From an uncultured Anaerolineae bacterium (lineage in GTDB: Bacteria; Chloroflexota; Anaerolineae; Anaerolineales; Villigracilaceae), in contig CAIWAX010000257.1 of NCBI GenBank assembly GCA_903910795.1, positions 1 to 46,907 of the forward strand: a stretch of DNA of 46,907 bases, written 5' to 3'. The stretch's first letter is position 1. Every line of letters starts with the position of its first letter. Positions 2,060-8,827 of this stretch are shown here, piece after piece. The translations under genes were made by a program, and so were the position numbers. The notes under the pieces are model-generated. The model was given only the letters and a program-made list of their open reading frames with translations. It ran no database searches and had not been told where the DNA came from.

Positions 2060-3142
2060 GTGAAACGTATTGGAGTTCTGACCGGCGGTGGTGACGCGCC
2101 CGGATTGAACGCGGTCATCCGCGCGGTGGTGAAAACGGCTGTCAACGATTATGGATGTCATGTGCTGGGTATTAAAAACGGTCTGGACGGTTTCCTGATG
2201 CCCGGCGGGGTTTTCCCGCTCACTCCCGCAGAAGTTCGCGGTATCCTGCCGCGCGGAGGCACCATCCTGGGCACCGCCAACCGTGGAAATGCGTATGCCC
2301 GCAAGGTTGTGCAGGATGGTAAGGAAGTGATTGTCGATGTATCCACTGACATTGTTCAGGCTATCAAGGAACAAAAGCTGGATGCCCTGATCATGATTGG
2401 CGGCGACGGTACGCTGCGTTTTGCGCATGATTTGTATCTGCGCGGCATTCCAGTGGTGGGCGTGCCCAAGACGATCGACAACGATATCCACGGCACCGAG
2501 GTTTCCTTTGGCTTCGATACTGCTTTGAACATTGCCACCGAAGCCATTGACCGTCTGCATACCACCGCGGAATCACATCAACGTGCCATGATCATCGAGT
2601 TGATGGGCCGCGATGCGGGCTTTATCACCCTGCATTCAGGTGTGGCGGGCGGTGCGGATGTAATTCTGATCCCTGAAATCCCCTTCAGATGGAACTCAGT
2701 CTTACAGAAGGTGCTGGATCGCAAGGCGCGCGGCAGTTCCTTCAGCATCCTGGCGGTTTCTGAAGGCGCCAAAGCTCAGGATGCTGACCCAATCTACAAC
2801 CGGCCCGGTGACCAGATGTATGTGCCGCGGCTGGGCGGGATTGGGCAAAAGCTGGGCGAATACCTGGAGGCAAACGGCATCGAGACGCGCGTCACCGTGC
2901 TTGGGCATGTCCAGCGCGGGGGCACCCCCTCGGCGTTTGACCGCTGGCTGGCTACCCGTTACGGCTCGGCGGCGGTGCGCGTGGCTGCCGCTCGGCATTT
3001 TGACCGCATGGTGACGCTGGCGGCTGGTCATATCACGGATATGCCGCTCCTGGATGCGATTGCCATCCCTAAACGTGTTGATCCCCATGGTGAAGAGGTT
3101 GTCACGGCGCGCAGTATCGGCATTTCTTTCGGCGACGAGTAA
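2060..3142 (+). CDS. pfkA: 6-phosphofructokinase
   Basis: It phosphorylates fructose 6-phosphate to the 1,6-bisphosphate in glycolysis. GTG 2060 is chosen: a strong GGGAGGAGG (2044-2052) precedes it and the protein then opens KRIGVLTGGGDAPGLN, the normal PFK N-terminus. The length is 360 residues. Visible motifs are the nucleotide site GGDGT (114-118), the catalytic loop PKTIDND (136-142), MGRDAGF (182-188), and the late HVQRGGTPSAFDR loop. The Gly in GGDGT with Lys in PKTIDND is the Gly/Lys combination of actinobacterial-type group III PFKs; known PPi-dependent enzymes carry Asp at the first site. ATP use is therefore the better guess. The gene is monocistronic as far as can be seen. Confidence 0.93.
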   Translation: MKRIGVLTGGGDAPGLNAVIRAVVKTAVNDYGCHVLGIKNGLDGFLMPGGVFPLTPAEVRGILPRGGTILGTANRGNAYARKVVQDGKEVIVDVSTDIVQAIKEQKLDALIMIGGDGTLRFAHDLYLRGIPVVGVPKTIDNDIHGTEVSFGFDTALNIATEAIDRLHTTAESHQRAMIIELMGRDAGFITLHSGVAGGADVILIPEIPFRWNSVLQKVLDRKARGSSFSILAVSEGAKAQDADPIYNRPGDQMYVPRLGGIGQKLGEYLEANGIETRVTVLGHVQRGGTPSAFDRWLATRYGSAAVRVAAARHFDRMVTLAAGHITDMPLLDAIAIPKRVDPHGEEVVTARSIGISFGDE

Positions 3143-3144
3143 CT

Positions 3145-3178
3145 TAAAATGAGAATGCCGCCCTTTCGGACGGCATTC
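3145..3178 (-). terminator. Terminator of the small minus-strand unit
   Basis: GAATGCCG (3153-3160) pairs with CGGCATTC (3171-3178), with two more G-C pairs inside around a short loop. On the minus strand the hairpin is followed by TCATTTTAAG, giving a recognisable though short U-tract. On the plus strand no T-run follows, so it serves pfk less well. It overlaps the last bases after the pfk stop. Confidence 0.5.
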
Positions 3179-3182
3179 AGTT

Positions 3183-3231
3183 GGCGCAATGGCTTCCTTA
3201 TCGGAGACCGAGGAGGGATGCCATTGCGCCG
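3183..3231. ncRNA. Large stable hairpin inside the small unit
   Basis: GGCGCAATGGC (3183-3193) and GCCATTGCGCC (3221-3231) form a perfect 11-bp stem. The inside continues as CCTTATCGG against CCGAGGAGG with two central mismatches and a 3-nt loop. On the minus strand the hairpin holds the 3' half of the 19-codon ORF and its stop codon, so translation would melt it. No known RNA family was recognised. Confidence 0.45.
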
Positions 3232-3257
3232 CGTTGGATACTACTGGAACTGTCCAT
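3198..3257 (-). CDS. Candidate 19-residue peptide with perfect Shine-Dalgarno
   Basis: ATG (3257-3255) is preceded at 7 nt by AGGAGGTGAT (3274-3265), the exact complement of the 16S rRNA 3' end. The frame gives MDSSSSIQRGAMASLLGLR and stops at TAA 3200-3198, inside a stable hairpin. A TTGACA promoter lies about 90 nt upstream and a terminator hairpin follows, so the unit looks like a complete short gene. The peptide has no signal peptide or membrane span and no recognised family. It could be a regulatory leader or upstream peptide, a small functional peptide, or chance within an sRNA. The strength of the ribosome site is the main argument for translation. Confidence 0.4.
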   Translation of the reverse strand: MDSSSSIQRGAMASLLGLR

Positions 3258-3322
3258 GCTAGACATCACCTCCTGTTATGAAAGGATAGCAATAAAAAAT
3301 ATTGTTTCCTGATGATGTTGAT

Positions 3323-3351
3323 AGTATTACATAATCTTAATCGGATGTCAA
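3323..3351 (-). promoter_or_regulatory. Promoter of the small minus-strand unit
   Basis: On the minus strand a perfect -35 TTGACA (3351-3346) is followed 17 nt later by AATACT (3328-3323), preceded by TG as in extended -10 promoters. It is the best sigma-70-type -35 I found in the window. The predicted RNA from about 3316 to the terminator is roughly 165 nt. Confidence 0.5.
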
Positions 3352-3549: not shown

Positions 3550-3602
3550 AGAACTTGCCAGTTCGCCGGGACTATCCTGAAAAGAAAATCATGGAGGTTT
3601 TT

Positions 3603-5189
3603 ATGCAAAAGCAGCCTGCTCGTCTGTGGATCACGGCCCTGTTCCTGGGCTGGTTGTTGGATTTTCTTTTTTTCAAACATAGCCCCGGTCTTAATTTTGC
3701 CATTTATGCGCTGGTCACCCTGTTGGGCGGATTGATCCTGTTGTGGCTGGACGGTCTGCGCCCGGCGCGGGCTACCTGGTGGTTGTTCCCGTTGTTCCTA
3801 TTCTTTATCGTTTTCTCAGTCCTGCGCCAGGAACCGCTCAGCGCCGTGCTGGCACATGGTCTCACACTCTTCATGATGACGGGTGTGGCAGTCAGCTATC
3901 GCGGCGGCCAGTGGCCGCTTTACAGTCTGGCCGACTACTTTGTGCGCGGTCTGGATCTGGTTGGCAGCCTCGTTGCCCGTCCCATTCGTTTCTTCACCAG
4001 CCTGCGGCCTGCAAAGGATGAAGCGGGAAACGCTCCAAAAAGCATCACCCGCATTTTTCCGGTATTGCGCGGCGTGTTTTTCGCAGTGCCTGTGGTGGCT
4101 TTTTTCGCGGCTCTGCTGGCCTCGGCTGACTTGATCTTTGCGCAGCGGCTGGCGAGCATTACTGCCCTGTTCAGCATCGAAAACCTGCCGGAATATATCT
4201 TCCGTTTCACCTATATCATTGTCGCGGCTTATGCCCTGGCGGGAGTGTATCTGCACGCCGCGCAGCGTTCAACGGATGAGAAATTGCTCGGCCTGGAAAA
4301 ACCGCTCATTCCTGCCTTTTTGGGGTTCACCGAAGCCGGGATTGTGCTGGGCAGCGTGGTGCTGTTGTTTGCCGCCTTTGTCATGATCCAGTTCCAGTAT
4401 TTTTTTGGAGGTCAGGCCAATATCAATTTGAGCGGCTTCACCTATGCTGAGTATGTGCATAAAGGTTTTGGCGAGCTGGTTACGGTGGCCTTCTTTGCCC
4501 TGCTGCTCTTCCTGGGCCTTTCGACCATCACCCGGCGCGAAACCCTTTTGCGTCAGCGGTTTTTTTCGGGTCTCGGCGTAACCCTGCTGGCGCTGGTGGC
4601 GGTCATCCTGGTATCAGCCTACCAGCGGCTGGTGCTGTATGAGGATGCCTACGGCTTCACCCGCCTGCGCACTTATATTCATATATTTATGATCTGGGTC
4701 GGGGTTTTGCTGGCGAGCGTGGTGCTGCTTAACCTTTTCAAGCGCCAGCGCGCGTTTGCCCTGGCCGCTTTGCTGGCCGGGCTTGGTTTTTCCGCATCGC
4801 TGTTGCTGCTGAATGTGGATGCCTTCATTGTTCAGCGCAACCTGTCCCGTTTTGAACAGGGGCAGGCGCTGGATGTCGGTTACCTGGCGACTCTCTCGCC
4901 GGATGCAGTTCCGGCGCTGGTGAACGCCTACGCGGCTCCCGGCGCCCCTGCAGTTGCCCGCGACCGCGTCGGCGCAGTGCTGGCCTGCATCCAATTCGCA
5001 GATTCCAACCGCAGCGCCCGCGACAAATCCTGGCAGGCCTTCAACCTGTCGGATTATTGGGCCGCGAACGCCCTGGGGCCGGTCGTGGGTTCTCTGAGCG
5101 GCTATCAGATCGACAAAACCAACTGGCCGGCTTCGGTCACAACGCCCATGGATCTGAAGTTCGACTGTTACAGCAGTACGGGCGAGTGA
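3603..5189 (+). CDS. DUF4173 family multi-spanning membrane protein
   Basis: The 528-residue protein has about a dozen hydrophobic segments and a soluble C-terminal region of about 120 residues. The segment FTYAEYVHKGFGELVTVAFFALLLFLG, the following RRE/LLR basic stretch and YQRLVLYEDAYGFTRLRTYIH match the conserved core of DUF4173. ATG 3603 is preferred: GGAGG at 3593-3597 sits 5 nt upstream, and the start opens MQKQPARLWITALFLGWLLD, a typical membrane N-terminus; the 45 codons upstream are not protein-like. DUF4173 function is not established; relatives are found near two-component and cell-envelope genes. It converges with cydC. Confidence 0.8.
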   Translation: MQKQPARLWITALFLGWLLDFLFFKHSPGLNFAIYALVTLLGGLILLWLDGLRPARATWWLFPLFLFFIVFSVLRQEPLSAVLAHGLTLFMMTGVAVSYRGGQWPLYSLADYFVRGLDLVGSLVARPIRFFTSLRPAKDEAGNAPKSITRIFPVLRGVFFAVPVVAFFAALLASADLIFAQRLASITALFSIENLPEYIFRFTYIIVAAYALAGVYLHAAQRSTDEKLLGLEKPLIPAFLGFTEAGIVLGSVVLLFAAFVMIQFQYFFGGQANINLSGFTYAEYVHKGFGELVTVAFFALLLFLGLSTITRRETLLRQRFFSGLGVTLLALVAVILVSAYQRLVLYEDAYGFTRLRTYIHIFMIWVGVLLASVVLLNLFKRQRAFALAALLAGLGFSASLLLLNVDAFIVQRNLSRFEQGQALDVGYLATLSPDAVPALVNAYAAPGAPAVARDRVGAVLACIQFADSNRSARDKSWQAFNLSDYWAANALGPVVGSLSGYQIDKTNWPASVTTPMDLKFDCYSSTGE

Positions 5190-5325: not shown

Positions 5326-7077
5326 CTAGAAGAACTGCAACCCCCACAGCTTCCAGTACAGCCCCTGCTGTGCAAGCAGCCCCGCGTGGGTGCCGCGTTC
5401 GACGATGCGGCCGCTGTCCATTACCAATATCTCATCCATCTCTTCCAAGCCCACCAGGCGGTGAGTGATCCATAGCACGGATTTGTCTTTGACCACGCGC
5501 TGCAGCGTTTCCACCAGGCGGCGCTCAGTGCTGGCATCCAGGTTGGCGGTGGGCTCATCGAAGATGAAGAGCGGGGCATCTTTCAACAAGGCGCGGGCGA
5601 TGGCCACACGCTGGCGCTCGCCGCCCGAGAACTGCACCCCACGCTCACCCACCAGGGTTTCATAACCTTTCGGGAGCGTGTTGACAAAATCGTGCAGTTT
5701 GGCCTGCTGGCAGGCGGACTCGATCTCTTCAGGAGTGGCGCTGGCGCGCGCCAGCCGCAGGTTCTCGCTCAGGCTGGCGTTGAACAGGTAAGTGCCCTGG
5801 CTGACCAGGCTGAACATGCGGCGTGCGTCAACCGGAGTGTAGGCGCGGATATCCTGACCATCCAGCAGAATATCGCCTTGCTTGAACTCCCAGAAACGCA
5901 TCAACAGATTGGCGATGGTGGATTTTCCGGCGCCACTCGGGCCCACGATCGCCATTTTTTTACCGGGGGGCAGGTCAAAACTGATCCCATCCAGCACAAG
6001 CCCGGTTTCGTATGCGAAGCTCAAATTTTGCACACAGAGGTTTGCCGTGGCGGGGCGCGCTAAGGGCGTGGATGGTTCCAGCACGGCTGGGGCGCTGTCG
6101 GCAATTTCAAACAGCCGCCGTGCGGATTGCAGGTTGGCTTCCAGCAATTGAGCGGCCTGGGGCAGGTTTTGGACCGCCTCAAAGCTGGCCATGGCGCCCA
6201 GTACAATGACTGCCAGGTAAACGCCGTTCAAGGCGCCGTTTGTGACCATTGGGATGGAAACCATCAGCAATACCCACACACCCAAACCCACCAGCAGGCT
6301 GTTCAACCCGGACTGGATGCCGCTCAGGCGTGCCATGCGTGTCTGCACGTTTCCCAACCGTTCGCTGGCTGCTTTGACCTTGCTCAGCCAGGTTTTGGCC
6401 TGACCGAAGGCTGCCAGGTCGGGCAGACCCTGAACTACATCCACCAATTCGGCGCGCAAGAGCGCGCGTTCATTCGTCAACATCTGACCGGGTTTATGGT
6501 TCAATCCCAGGGATAAAGCCGTCAGCCCCGCGCCGATTGCCAGCAGGAAGGCCGCCAGGATCAACCCCAGCCAGGGGGAAAAGCTGCTCATGAAAACGGC
6601 CATGCTCAGGATTACGATGACTGCCACCAACGGTGGCGCCAGCACCCGCACATATAAGTTGTCGAGCGTTTCCACATCGGAGATGATCCGGTTGAGCAAG
6701 TCACCCGAGCGCGAGGCCGTCAGGCGGGCCGGGGCCAGTGGTTCGATGGCCTGATAAAACCAGACCCGCAGCCGGGCCAGCACCTTGAAAGTCAGTGAAT
6801 GCGCGGCCAGCCGCTCCAGGTAGCGGAAAACGCCGCGCGAAATGCCGAAAAATCGCACGCCCACTACCGCCACGCTGATAGCCGCGATGGATGGATGCAG
6901 GGCAGCCATCGAGATCAGGTAAGCGGAGGTGGACATCAGGCTGATGCTGGCGCCGATGGTCAGCGCACCCAGCAAAGTCGAGAGCAGGACTTCGGGCCAG
7001 AAAGGAAGCACAAAGCCGAGCAAACGCCGCAGCGTTTTCATGTCAATCGCCTGGTTGTTATCCAATTTCGACCCCAT
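5326..7077 (-). CDS. cydC: Thiol reductant ABC exporter, CydC subunit
   Basis: It is half of the heterodimeric CydDC ABC exporter, which moves glutathione or cysteine-type thiols across the membrane and is needed for cytochrome bd assembly. The protein has six membrane spans (about residues 20-300) then an ATPase domain: Walker A GPSGAGKST (379-387), ABC signature FSGGERQR (483-490), Walker B LFIFDE (503-508) and the later switch His in ITHR. ATG 7077 is used, overlapping the cydD stop by 20 nt; ATG 7041 (MKTLRRLL), 17 nt after that stop, and 7113 are alternatives, none with a strong ribosome site. It is translationally linked to cydD. No cydAB genes are in view. Confidence 0.88.
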   Translation of the reverse strand: MGSKLDNNQAIDMKTLRRLLGFVLPFWPEVLLSTLLGALTIGASISLMSTSAYLISMAALHPSIAAISVAVVGVRFFGISRGVFRYLERLAAHSLTFKVLARLRVWFYQAIEPLAPARLTASRSGDLLNRIISDVETLDNLYVRVLAPPLVAVIVILSMAVFMSSFSPWLGLILAAFLLAIGAGLTALSLGLNHKPGQMLTNERALLRAELVDVVQGLPDLAAFGQAKTWLSKVKAASERLGNVQTRMARLSGIQSGLNSLLVGLGVWVLLMVSIPMVTNGALNGVYLAVIVLGAMASFEAVQNLPQAAQLLEANLQSARRLFEIADSAPAVLEPSTPLARPATANLCVQNLSFAYETGLVLDGISFDLPPGKKMAIVGPSGAGKSTIANLLMRFWEFKQGDILLDGQDIRAYTPVDARRMFSLVSQGTYLFNASLSENLRLARASATPEEIESACQQAKLHDFVNTLPKGYETLVGERGVQFSGGERQRVAIARALLKDAPLFIFDEPTANLDASTERRLVETLQRVVKDKSVLWITHRLVGLEEMDEILVMDSGRIVERGTHAGLLAQQGLYWKLWGLQFF

Positions 7078-8827
7078 TTGTTTGTCCGCCCCGCGTTCCA
7101 ACCAGGGCGGCATACAGCCCGCCCCGCGCTACCAGCGCGGCATGTTGGCCGGTTTCAATCACACGGCCGTTTTCCAAAACCAGAATCTGACCAGCCTGGT
7201 AAACGGTTGAAAGGCGGTGGGCGATCACCAACGCTGTGCGCCCGCGCAGCAAGTTCTGCACAGAGCCGCGTAATTCGGCTTCCAGGCCGGGATCAAGGCT
7301 GGAGGTGGGTTCGTCCAGCAGCAGAAAGTTGGCATTCTTCAGGAAGGCGCGCGCCAGGGCCAGACGCTGCGCCTGGCCGCCGCTCAGTCTTGCCCCGCGT
7401 TCGCCGATCACGCTCTCGAAGCCGCGCGGCAGGCTGGCGATGAAATCCATTAATCCGGCTTGTTGGCAGGCCGTGATCAACTCTGTCTCGGATGCGTCCG
7501 GGTTGGCCAGCCGCAGGTTGGCTGCCAGGCTGTCATTGAAGAGATAGGGGTTCTGCGGTACCCAGGCCACCTGGCTGCGCCACCATTCGACCGGGAATGT
7601 TGCCAGGGGCTGCCCATCCACGCGGATCAGTCCGGCGGCCGGGTCGATAAAGCGCAGCAGCAGGCTGGCGATGGTGCTCTTGCCAGCGCCCGATGCACCC
7701 ACCAGTGCGGTGATCTGGCCGGGTTTGATCTGGAAGGAGACTTCCCGCAGGGCGGGTGTGTCGCGCTCCGGGTACTGGTAGGTGATTTTTTCGAAGTTGA
7801 TCTCAAAACGCAGCGGGTTCGCGGGGACAGCCAGCGGTTGTGGTTGTTGCGTGGTGTTAATGCGTGCGTGGGCGGGCAGGGGCGTATCCAGGATTGTAAA
7901 GATGCGTTTGGCGGCGCTGGAGCCGGACATGCCGGCGTGGTATTTCAATCCCAGTTGGCGCAGGGGCAGGTAGAAATCTGGCGCCACTACCAGGATGAAA
8001 AAGGCCGGTAAAAACTCCATCTGCCCATACAGCAGCCGGATACCGATTTCGACCGCTACGATGGCGGTGCTGAGTGTGGTGAGCAGTTCAAGCGCCAGGG
8101 CTGAGAGGAAGGTGATACGCAATACCTGCAGGGTCATGTCGCGATAGCGTTCACTGACATCAGCGATCACCTTTGCCTGGCTTTTGGCCTGGCCGAGGGC
8201 CTTGAGGGTTGTAAGACCCTGGAGCACATCGTAAAAATGGGCCGAAAGGCGGCTCAGGCTGGCGAACTGCCGGCCAGTCAACGCCTCAGCATTCCGGCCG
8301 ATCATGATCATGAAGAAGGGCACGAGCGGTGCGGTCAGCAGGAAGACGGCACCGGTCAGGATATCAATCGGGAAGATCAGGATCAGAATGGTGAGCGGGA
8401 TGGAGGCTGCCAGCACCAACTGCGGCAAATACTGGCTGAAGTAGGCATCCAGGGCCTCCACGCCTTCCACGGCGGCTGTGGCCAATTCTCCGGTGCGCTC
8501 ACCCTGTGTGAAAGCCGGGCCCAGGGCGGTCAGGTGTTCGAGCAACCGCCCGCGCAGGTCGGATTTAACCCGCTGTGCCACCGCGTTGGCGCTAACCTCT
8601 GCGCCCCAGATGCTGAGCGCCTTGCCTGCCACGACCGCCAGCAAAATACCCAGCGGCAGCCAGAGCGCGTTGAGTGTTGCGCCCTTCAAGAAGACGGCAT
8701 TTACAATGGAAGCCAGATACCAGGCCTGTAGGATGGTCAGCACGCCTCCGATCCATCCGAGCAGGATGGTCAGGGTCAGGGCGATACCGGAGGAACGCGC
8801 AAAATTAAGCAAACGGCGGGAGAACAT
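7058..8827 (-). CDS. cydD: Thiol reductant ABC exporter, CydD subunit
   Basis: This is the partner of CydC in the inner-membrane CydDC exporter. The 589 residues show an N-terminal membrane domain (about 15-300; opening YLASIVNAVFLKG, as in CydD) and an ATPase domain with Walker A GASGAGKST (377-385), signature LSGGQAQR (481-488) and Walker B FLLLDE (501-506). ATG 8827 is the start; a TATAAT box lies 7 nt upstream and there is no Shine-Dalgarno, so the message may be leaderless. CydD-then-CydC order is the usual one. Substrate specificity cannot be read from sequence alone. Confidence 0.88.
   Translation of the reverse strand: MFSRRLLNFARSSGIALTLTILLGWIGGVLTILQAWYLASIVNAVFLKGATLNALWLPLGILLAVVAGKALSIWGAEVSANAVAQRVKSDLRGRLLEHLTALGPAFTQGERTGELATAAVEGVEALDAYFSQYLPQLVLAASIPLTILILIFPIDILTGAVFLLTAPLVPFFMIMIGRNAEALTGRQFASLSRLSAHFYDVLQGLTTLKALGQAKSQAKVIADVSERYRDMTLQVLRITFLSALALELLTTLSTAIVAVEIGIRLLYGQMEFLPAFFILVVAPDFYLPLRQLGLKYHAGMSGSSAAKRIFTILDTPLPAHARINTTQQPQPLAVPANPLRFEINFEKITYQYPERDTPALREVSFQIKPGQITALVGASGAGKSTIASLLLRFIDPAAGLIRVDGQPLATFPVEWWRSQVAWVPQNPYLFNDSLAANLRLANPDASETELITACQQAGLMDFIASLPRGFESVIGERGARLSGGQAQRLALARAFLKNANFLLLDEPTSSLDPGLEAELRGSVQNLLRGRTALVIAHRLSTVYQAGQILVLENGRVIETGQHAALVARGGLYAALVGTRGGQTNGVEIG

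Follow-up and report, generated by a model that had tools for sequence, protein, structure and literature searches.

A conserved stand-alone mini-mRNA of the Chloroflexota, probably a translation-gated RNA switch

On the minus strand of a 46,907-nucleotide stretch of DNA from an uncultured Anaerolineae bacterium (hereafter the window, meaning this whole stretch), I identified a gene that stands alone and specifies a short, structured mini-mRNA, probably a translation-gated RNA switch that reports initiation capacity and acts through RNA. Its central feature, a lock in which an anti-Shine-Dalgarno (anti-SD) segment encoded by the ORF closes the element's own Shine-Dalgarno (SD) sequence, is well supported by comparison of homologues; from the same comparisons I infer that the element is expressed and is actually controlled by ribosomes. 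More tentatively, it may represent a new kind of RNA gene spread across the phylum, in which translation of a micro-ORF is the signal, the peptide is dispensable, and the RNA acts in trans as a sensor of ribosome availability. The retention of a single-copy RNA gene, absent from Rfam, across a phylum this ancient makes a basic function likely, and the logic proposed here would make the element a natural sensor of ribosome supply, which is testable in cultured Chloroflexota. A further implication is that a perfect SD in front of a micro-ORF does not by itself mark a peptide gene.

Anatomy of the element

All coordinates below refer to the minus strand of the window, unless stated otherwise. A sigma-70-type promoter is found at 3351–3323, with TTGACA (3351–3346), a 17-nt spacer and a TG-extended AATACT (3328–3323), matching 10 of 12 consensus positions. 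With the start placed from the -10 element and the end from the terminator, the predicted transcript is ∼170 nt long (3316–3145). A conserved GCUAUCC (3290–3284; GC[CU]AUCC in homologues) precedes the SD, AGGAGGTGAT (3274–3265), which lies 7 nt before the ATG at 3257. The SD is a ten-base match, and is exceptional among the surveyed ORFs: in a set of 315 others, each 150 amino acids or longer and taken from the window and the flanks of homologues, only one has at least 9 SD-complementary bases. The extended SD, AGGAGGUGAUGUC (3274–3262, hereafter segment 1), has a core that is invariant in all homologues.

The 19-codon ORF, MDSSSSIQRGAMASLLGLR (3257–3198, with the stop TAA at 3200–3198), contains the 5' arm of a hairpin, GGCGCAATGGC (3230–3220), which forms 11 base pairs with a 3' arm located after the stop, GCCATTGCGCC (3193–3183). 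The anti-SD, GGCAUCCCUCCU (3222–3211, hereafter segment 2), is also inside the ORF, at the hairpin apex. An intrinsic-terminator hairpin with an 11-bp stem (3178–3153) follows, and shares no sequence with the switch hairpin. The folding of the element's RNA is well above chance (z of -6.7, equalled by none of 200 shuffles).

The sequence-only reading of this DNA had listed the promoter, the perfect SD, the 19-codon ORF, the hairpin and the terminator, and all were located on the minus strand where it had placed them. The terminator hairpin it described is present, but the tail that it called T-rich, TCATTTTA, contains T only in moderate excess. It had overlooked the anti-SD within the ORF, the upstream GCUAUCC, and the phylum-wide conservation described below.

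Distribution and homologues

As that reading had proposed, relatives were searched at the DNA level and the window was compared to Rfam. The DNA search, covering 101 relatives, identified strong homologues throughout the window's family, and 48 of these were used to build a first covariance model, which, in the class Anaerolineae, matches 224 of 396 genomes, at one place each. A second model, built from 59 divergent members of the class, matches 201 of 297 Anaerolineae genomes with a completeness of at least 90%, almost always in single copy. The carriers named by a genome scan are Anaerolineae and include Thermoflexus, Caldilineaceae, Levilinea and Villigracilaceae; in the third or so of class genomes with no match, the effects of strict filters, incomplete assemblies and real loss are inseparable. 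Across the phylum, the second model matches 121 of 400 genomes at E-values (which are rough) up to 0.05, many of them outside Anaerolineae, and the homologues in other Chloroflexota classes are weaker yet coherent. The ORF, the stem and the promoter, on whose conservation in relatives the sequence-only reading depended, are all three conserved.

Two clear copies are present in one genome and a weak second match in another, while the remaining genomes have one copy. In one further locus, on a single contig of a genome that is 77% complete, the ORF is broken by an apparent frameshift, possibly an indel error.

The Rfam comparison of the window returned no family at or above its gathering cut-off; matches at permissive thresholds are at chance level, as for BSR0602 (14.5 bits, against a cut-off of 191). 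The distribution outside Chloroflexota was judged from a pattern scan alone: among the matches listed, those to Akkermansia, Neoruminococcus, Microvirga, Christensenella and Leeuwenhoekiella have neither hairpin nor terminator and fail the model, and two viral contigs show no convincing match to it either. I found no description of the element in the open-access literature, although an earlier report may exist elsewhere.

A probable lock on the SD by an anti-SD within the ORF

The hairpin is 99% paired in 59 members of the class from outside the window's family, and 9 of its 10 pairs show compensatory double-sided changes in these same members. Each RNA has one anti-SD, in one hairpin, with an apex of AUCACCUC(C), or CCCUCCUC in the window's family, and this apex can base-pair with the SD region of the same element. 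The resulting SD:anti-SD helix is 94.9% paired in 59 sequences, with the outermost pair often open. One of its pairs is A-U in 45 sequences, G-C in 10 and G-U in 4, the G-C state occurring in eight families, and most other changes retain a wobble pair; the SD core being invariant, covariation can be read at few positions only.

I also compared the pairing of each SD with its own anti-SD to that obtained after swapping partners between homologues. Own pairing is stronger in the class set (-21.4, against -19.8 when swapped, sd 0.22) and in the set from other classes (-18.3 against -16.6, sd 0.27; -10.8 for shuffled ORFs), and in neither set was it equalled by any of 2000 permutations. In the window itself, the duplex between the SD region and GGCAUCCCUCCU has a predicted energy of -18.3 kcal/mol, equalled by one of 1000 shuffles. 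Taken together, the covariation, the swap tests and the window duplex show selection on the pairing of each SD with its own ORF. Covariation and energy predict that the anti-SD closes the SD; they would fit pairing within one molecule as well as between two, the former being the simpler reading. The conserved GC[CU]AUCC upstream is also predicted to pair weakly with the SD; with the SD core invariant, no covariation is seen for this pairing.

An alternative is that the element is a trans-acting anti-SD sRNA of the cuckoo type, whose apex (CCCUCCUC or AUCACCUCC) pairs with the SDs of other mRNAs, its own SD serving as a safety lock that is opened by ribosomes. It has in its favour that the Anaerolineae apex AUCACCUCC is identical to the 3' tail of the group's 16S rRNA (GGATCACCTCCTTT), and is displayed in a hairpin before a terminator; this canonical tail was confirmed in two genomes with a looser pattern, a strict pattern having been too specific and having found little. 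However, the anti-SD tracks changes in the element's own SD, which disfavours simple 16S mimicry for trans targets, and outside Anaerolineae it is often GGGCAUCACC, in which CCUCC is lacking and the match to the own SD region extends further than the 16S complement. I therefore consider this alternative unlikely.

Several minor features of the hairpin region were also observed. In Anaerolineae a small nested hairpin follows the anti-SD in the apex (for example CGGAUCCUCCG, CCGGUUAUCCGG and CUGGUUUCCAG in three loci); its changes look compensatory, and it would account for the frequent C-terminal arginine. Three other loci have an insertion of ∼20 nt between the stop and the 3' arm, with an additional or nearly repeated anti-SD-like CACCUCC or ACCUCC.

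Predicted alternative folds in other Chloroflexota classes

Outside Anaerolineae the SD, the micro-ORF, the terminator and the complementarity between SD and ORF are all retained, while the location of the anti-SD differs. In Anaerolineae it is in the hairpin apex, where its pairing to the SD would form a pseudoknot, whereas in several other classes it forms the 5' arm of the hairpin, as in GGGCAUCACC. Four of the homologues (L296, L301, L312 and L161) have a 3' arm that is an exact or near copy of the SD (GGUGAUGCCC), and the pairing of segment 2 to segment 1 and its pairing to the 3' arm (segment 3) are therefore mutually exclusive. Ordinary folding predicts one state or the other depending on the species: segment 2 closes the SD in L131 and L329, while in L296 and L312 the hairpin forms and the SD is open.

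The reading frame is maintained, but the peptide is not

Of the 131 homologues scored, 129 keep the frame of the ORF through the hairpin loop, ORF length varying by multiples of 3 nt, and the stop is usually 1–11 nt before the hairpin 3' arm. This agrees with the earlier suggestion that translation through the hairpin matters. In a few members, Thermoflexus and L158 among them, the loop is passed in another frame, and the stop is still correctly placed.

Conservation at the codon level, which had also been put forward as a check, gave the opposite picture for the peptide. In the part of the ORF that precedes the hairpin, closely related pairs show 172, 316 and 324 differences at codon positions 1, 2 and 3 respectively, with 105 synonymous single changes against 88.5 expected without selection, and 125 different peptides are encoded by 137 homologues. 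The peptide thus evolves nearly neutrally while start, frame and stop are conserved. The secreted or regulatory peptide envisaged by the sequence-only reading is therefore an unlikely product. Translation is conserved and its product is not, so that most simply translation is itself the signal; this suggests that the RNA responds to ribosomes instead of making a useful peptide.

A conserved functional micropeptide, toxin-like or regulatory, with translation merely kept low by SD occlusion, is a weaker alternative still than the trans-acting sRNA, and I regard it as improbable. The conserved start, frame and stop would fit it, as would the occlusion of the SD by an anti-SD, a design known from type I toxin mRNAs (PMC6733600), and the recurring N-terminal M-D-x-S-S. 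Against this, codon changes are near-neutral, other frames are used in Thermoflexus and L158, and the peptides are short, polar and not membrane-like, with no conserved hydrophobic character of the toxin kind. The conserved stretches are accounted for by RNA pairing, which also explains the portion of the ORF that does not vary (GCAUCCCUCCUC in the window's family). In addition, a consensus scan of the window detected no plus-strand promoter-like site overlapping the element that might drive an antisense antitoxin.

Partial conservation is seen for the N-terminal M-D-x-S-S / AGU pattern, which could still matter. At codons 3–6 of the homologous ORFs, AGU codons reappear across classes, as does a GUAGUA / AGUAAGCGUA stretch, even though the encoded residues are not the same; this suggests that the RNA itself is constrained in the loop that separates the SD from the hairpin.

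Genomic context

In the window, the element is flanked by a divergent DUF4153 membrane-protein gene and by a converging phosphofructokinase gene (Pfam PF00365) on the opposite strand. The latter has its stop at 3142, so that the element ends against it, as had been noted from the sequence alone. Within the window's family, 35 loci have this divergent arrangement of the element and a DUF4153 membrane-protein-like gene (3591–5189, plus strand, in the window). Further away, two tandem ABC transporter genes (5326–8827, minus strand), with permease and ATPase fused, have a cydDC-like arrangement.

Across homologues, the downstream neighbours are differing genes, which converge on the element in 77 cases and follow it in the same direction in 58. 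Most homologues are preceded by a near-consensus promoter (TTGACA-17-NATAAT), and together with the terminator this bounds a small, intrinsically terminated transcription unit. Because the neighbouring genes vary, the element is not a leader and stands alone, which bears out the earlier view of a complete unit with no downstream gene. An attenuator or leader controlling a neighbour by terminator readthrough, which the combination of a short ORF, an overlapping hairpin that can pair in alternative ways and a terminator might suggest, is thus very improbable and was rejected on gene context, as no co-directional regulated gene is shared, converging neighbours outnumber following ones, and the terminator hairpin has no sequence in common with the switch hairpin.

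A proposed mechanism

The features described above are consistent with a translation-gated switch operating as follows. A very strong ribosome-binding site (segment 1) could be closed by the anti-SD (segment 2) within its own micro-ORF, with hairpin formation and SD closure either combining as a pseudoknot or competing, depending on the position of segment 2. An initiating ribosome would have to unwind both segment 2 and the hairpin 5' arm, and would mostly terminate 1–11 nt before the 3' arm, so that translation itself would reset the fold. The functional event would then be the loading and passage of a ribosome, as a report of free initiation capacity, and the output would be carried by the RNA, through its stability or the binding of a partner, rather than by the peptide. 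Alternatively, the lock could be a permanent off-state instead of a switch.

Comparison with known systems

In the AapA and Hok type I toxin mRNAs, anti-SD segments keep the SD closed (PMC6733600). The element resembles these in having a small ORF, an SD closed by an anti-SD, and predicted stable, translationally inert states. It differs in that its peptide is polar and unconserved, that it is phylum-wide and in single copy, and that its anti-SD covaries with its own SD inside a conserved hairpin. The cuckoo / alpha-r14 (NfeR1) sRNAs of Alphaproteobacteria display CCUCCUCCC in each of three hairpins, with many mRNAs as their predicted targets (PMC10746234). Like them, the element is a small stand-alone RNA showing an anti-SD motif in a conserved hairpin; unlike them, it has a single anti-SD, in one hairpin, which is part of an ORF, fits the SD of the same RNA and often has no CCUCC in the classes other than Anaerolineae. 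The element lacks features that define type I toxin mRNAs and others that define cuckoo / alpha-r14 RNAs.

In leader-peptide attenuators of the trp and erm type, translation of a short ORF chooses between alternative pairings. Translation of the element's short ORF would similarly decide between pairings, but the element stands alone and has a terminator of its own, control codons are not conserved, and no downstream gene is common to the homologues. In translational riboswitches whose pseudoknot involves the SD, the SD supplies one strand of a helix that is alternative or pseudoknotted, and this is also the predicted situation of the SD here. The element differs from these in that no core resembling a ligand pocket was seen in it, that its closing strand is inside the translated ORF, and that the ORF being regulated is the micro-ORF itself.
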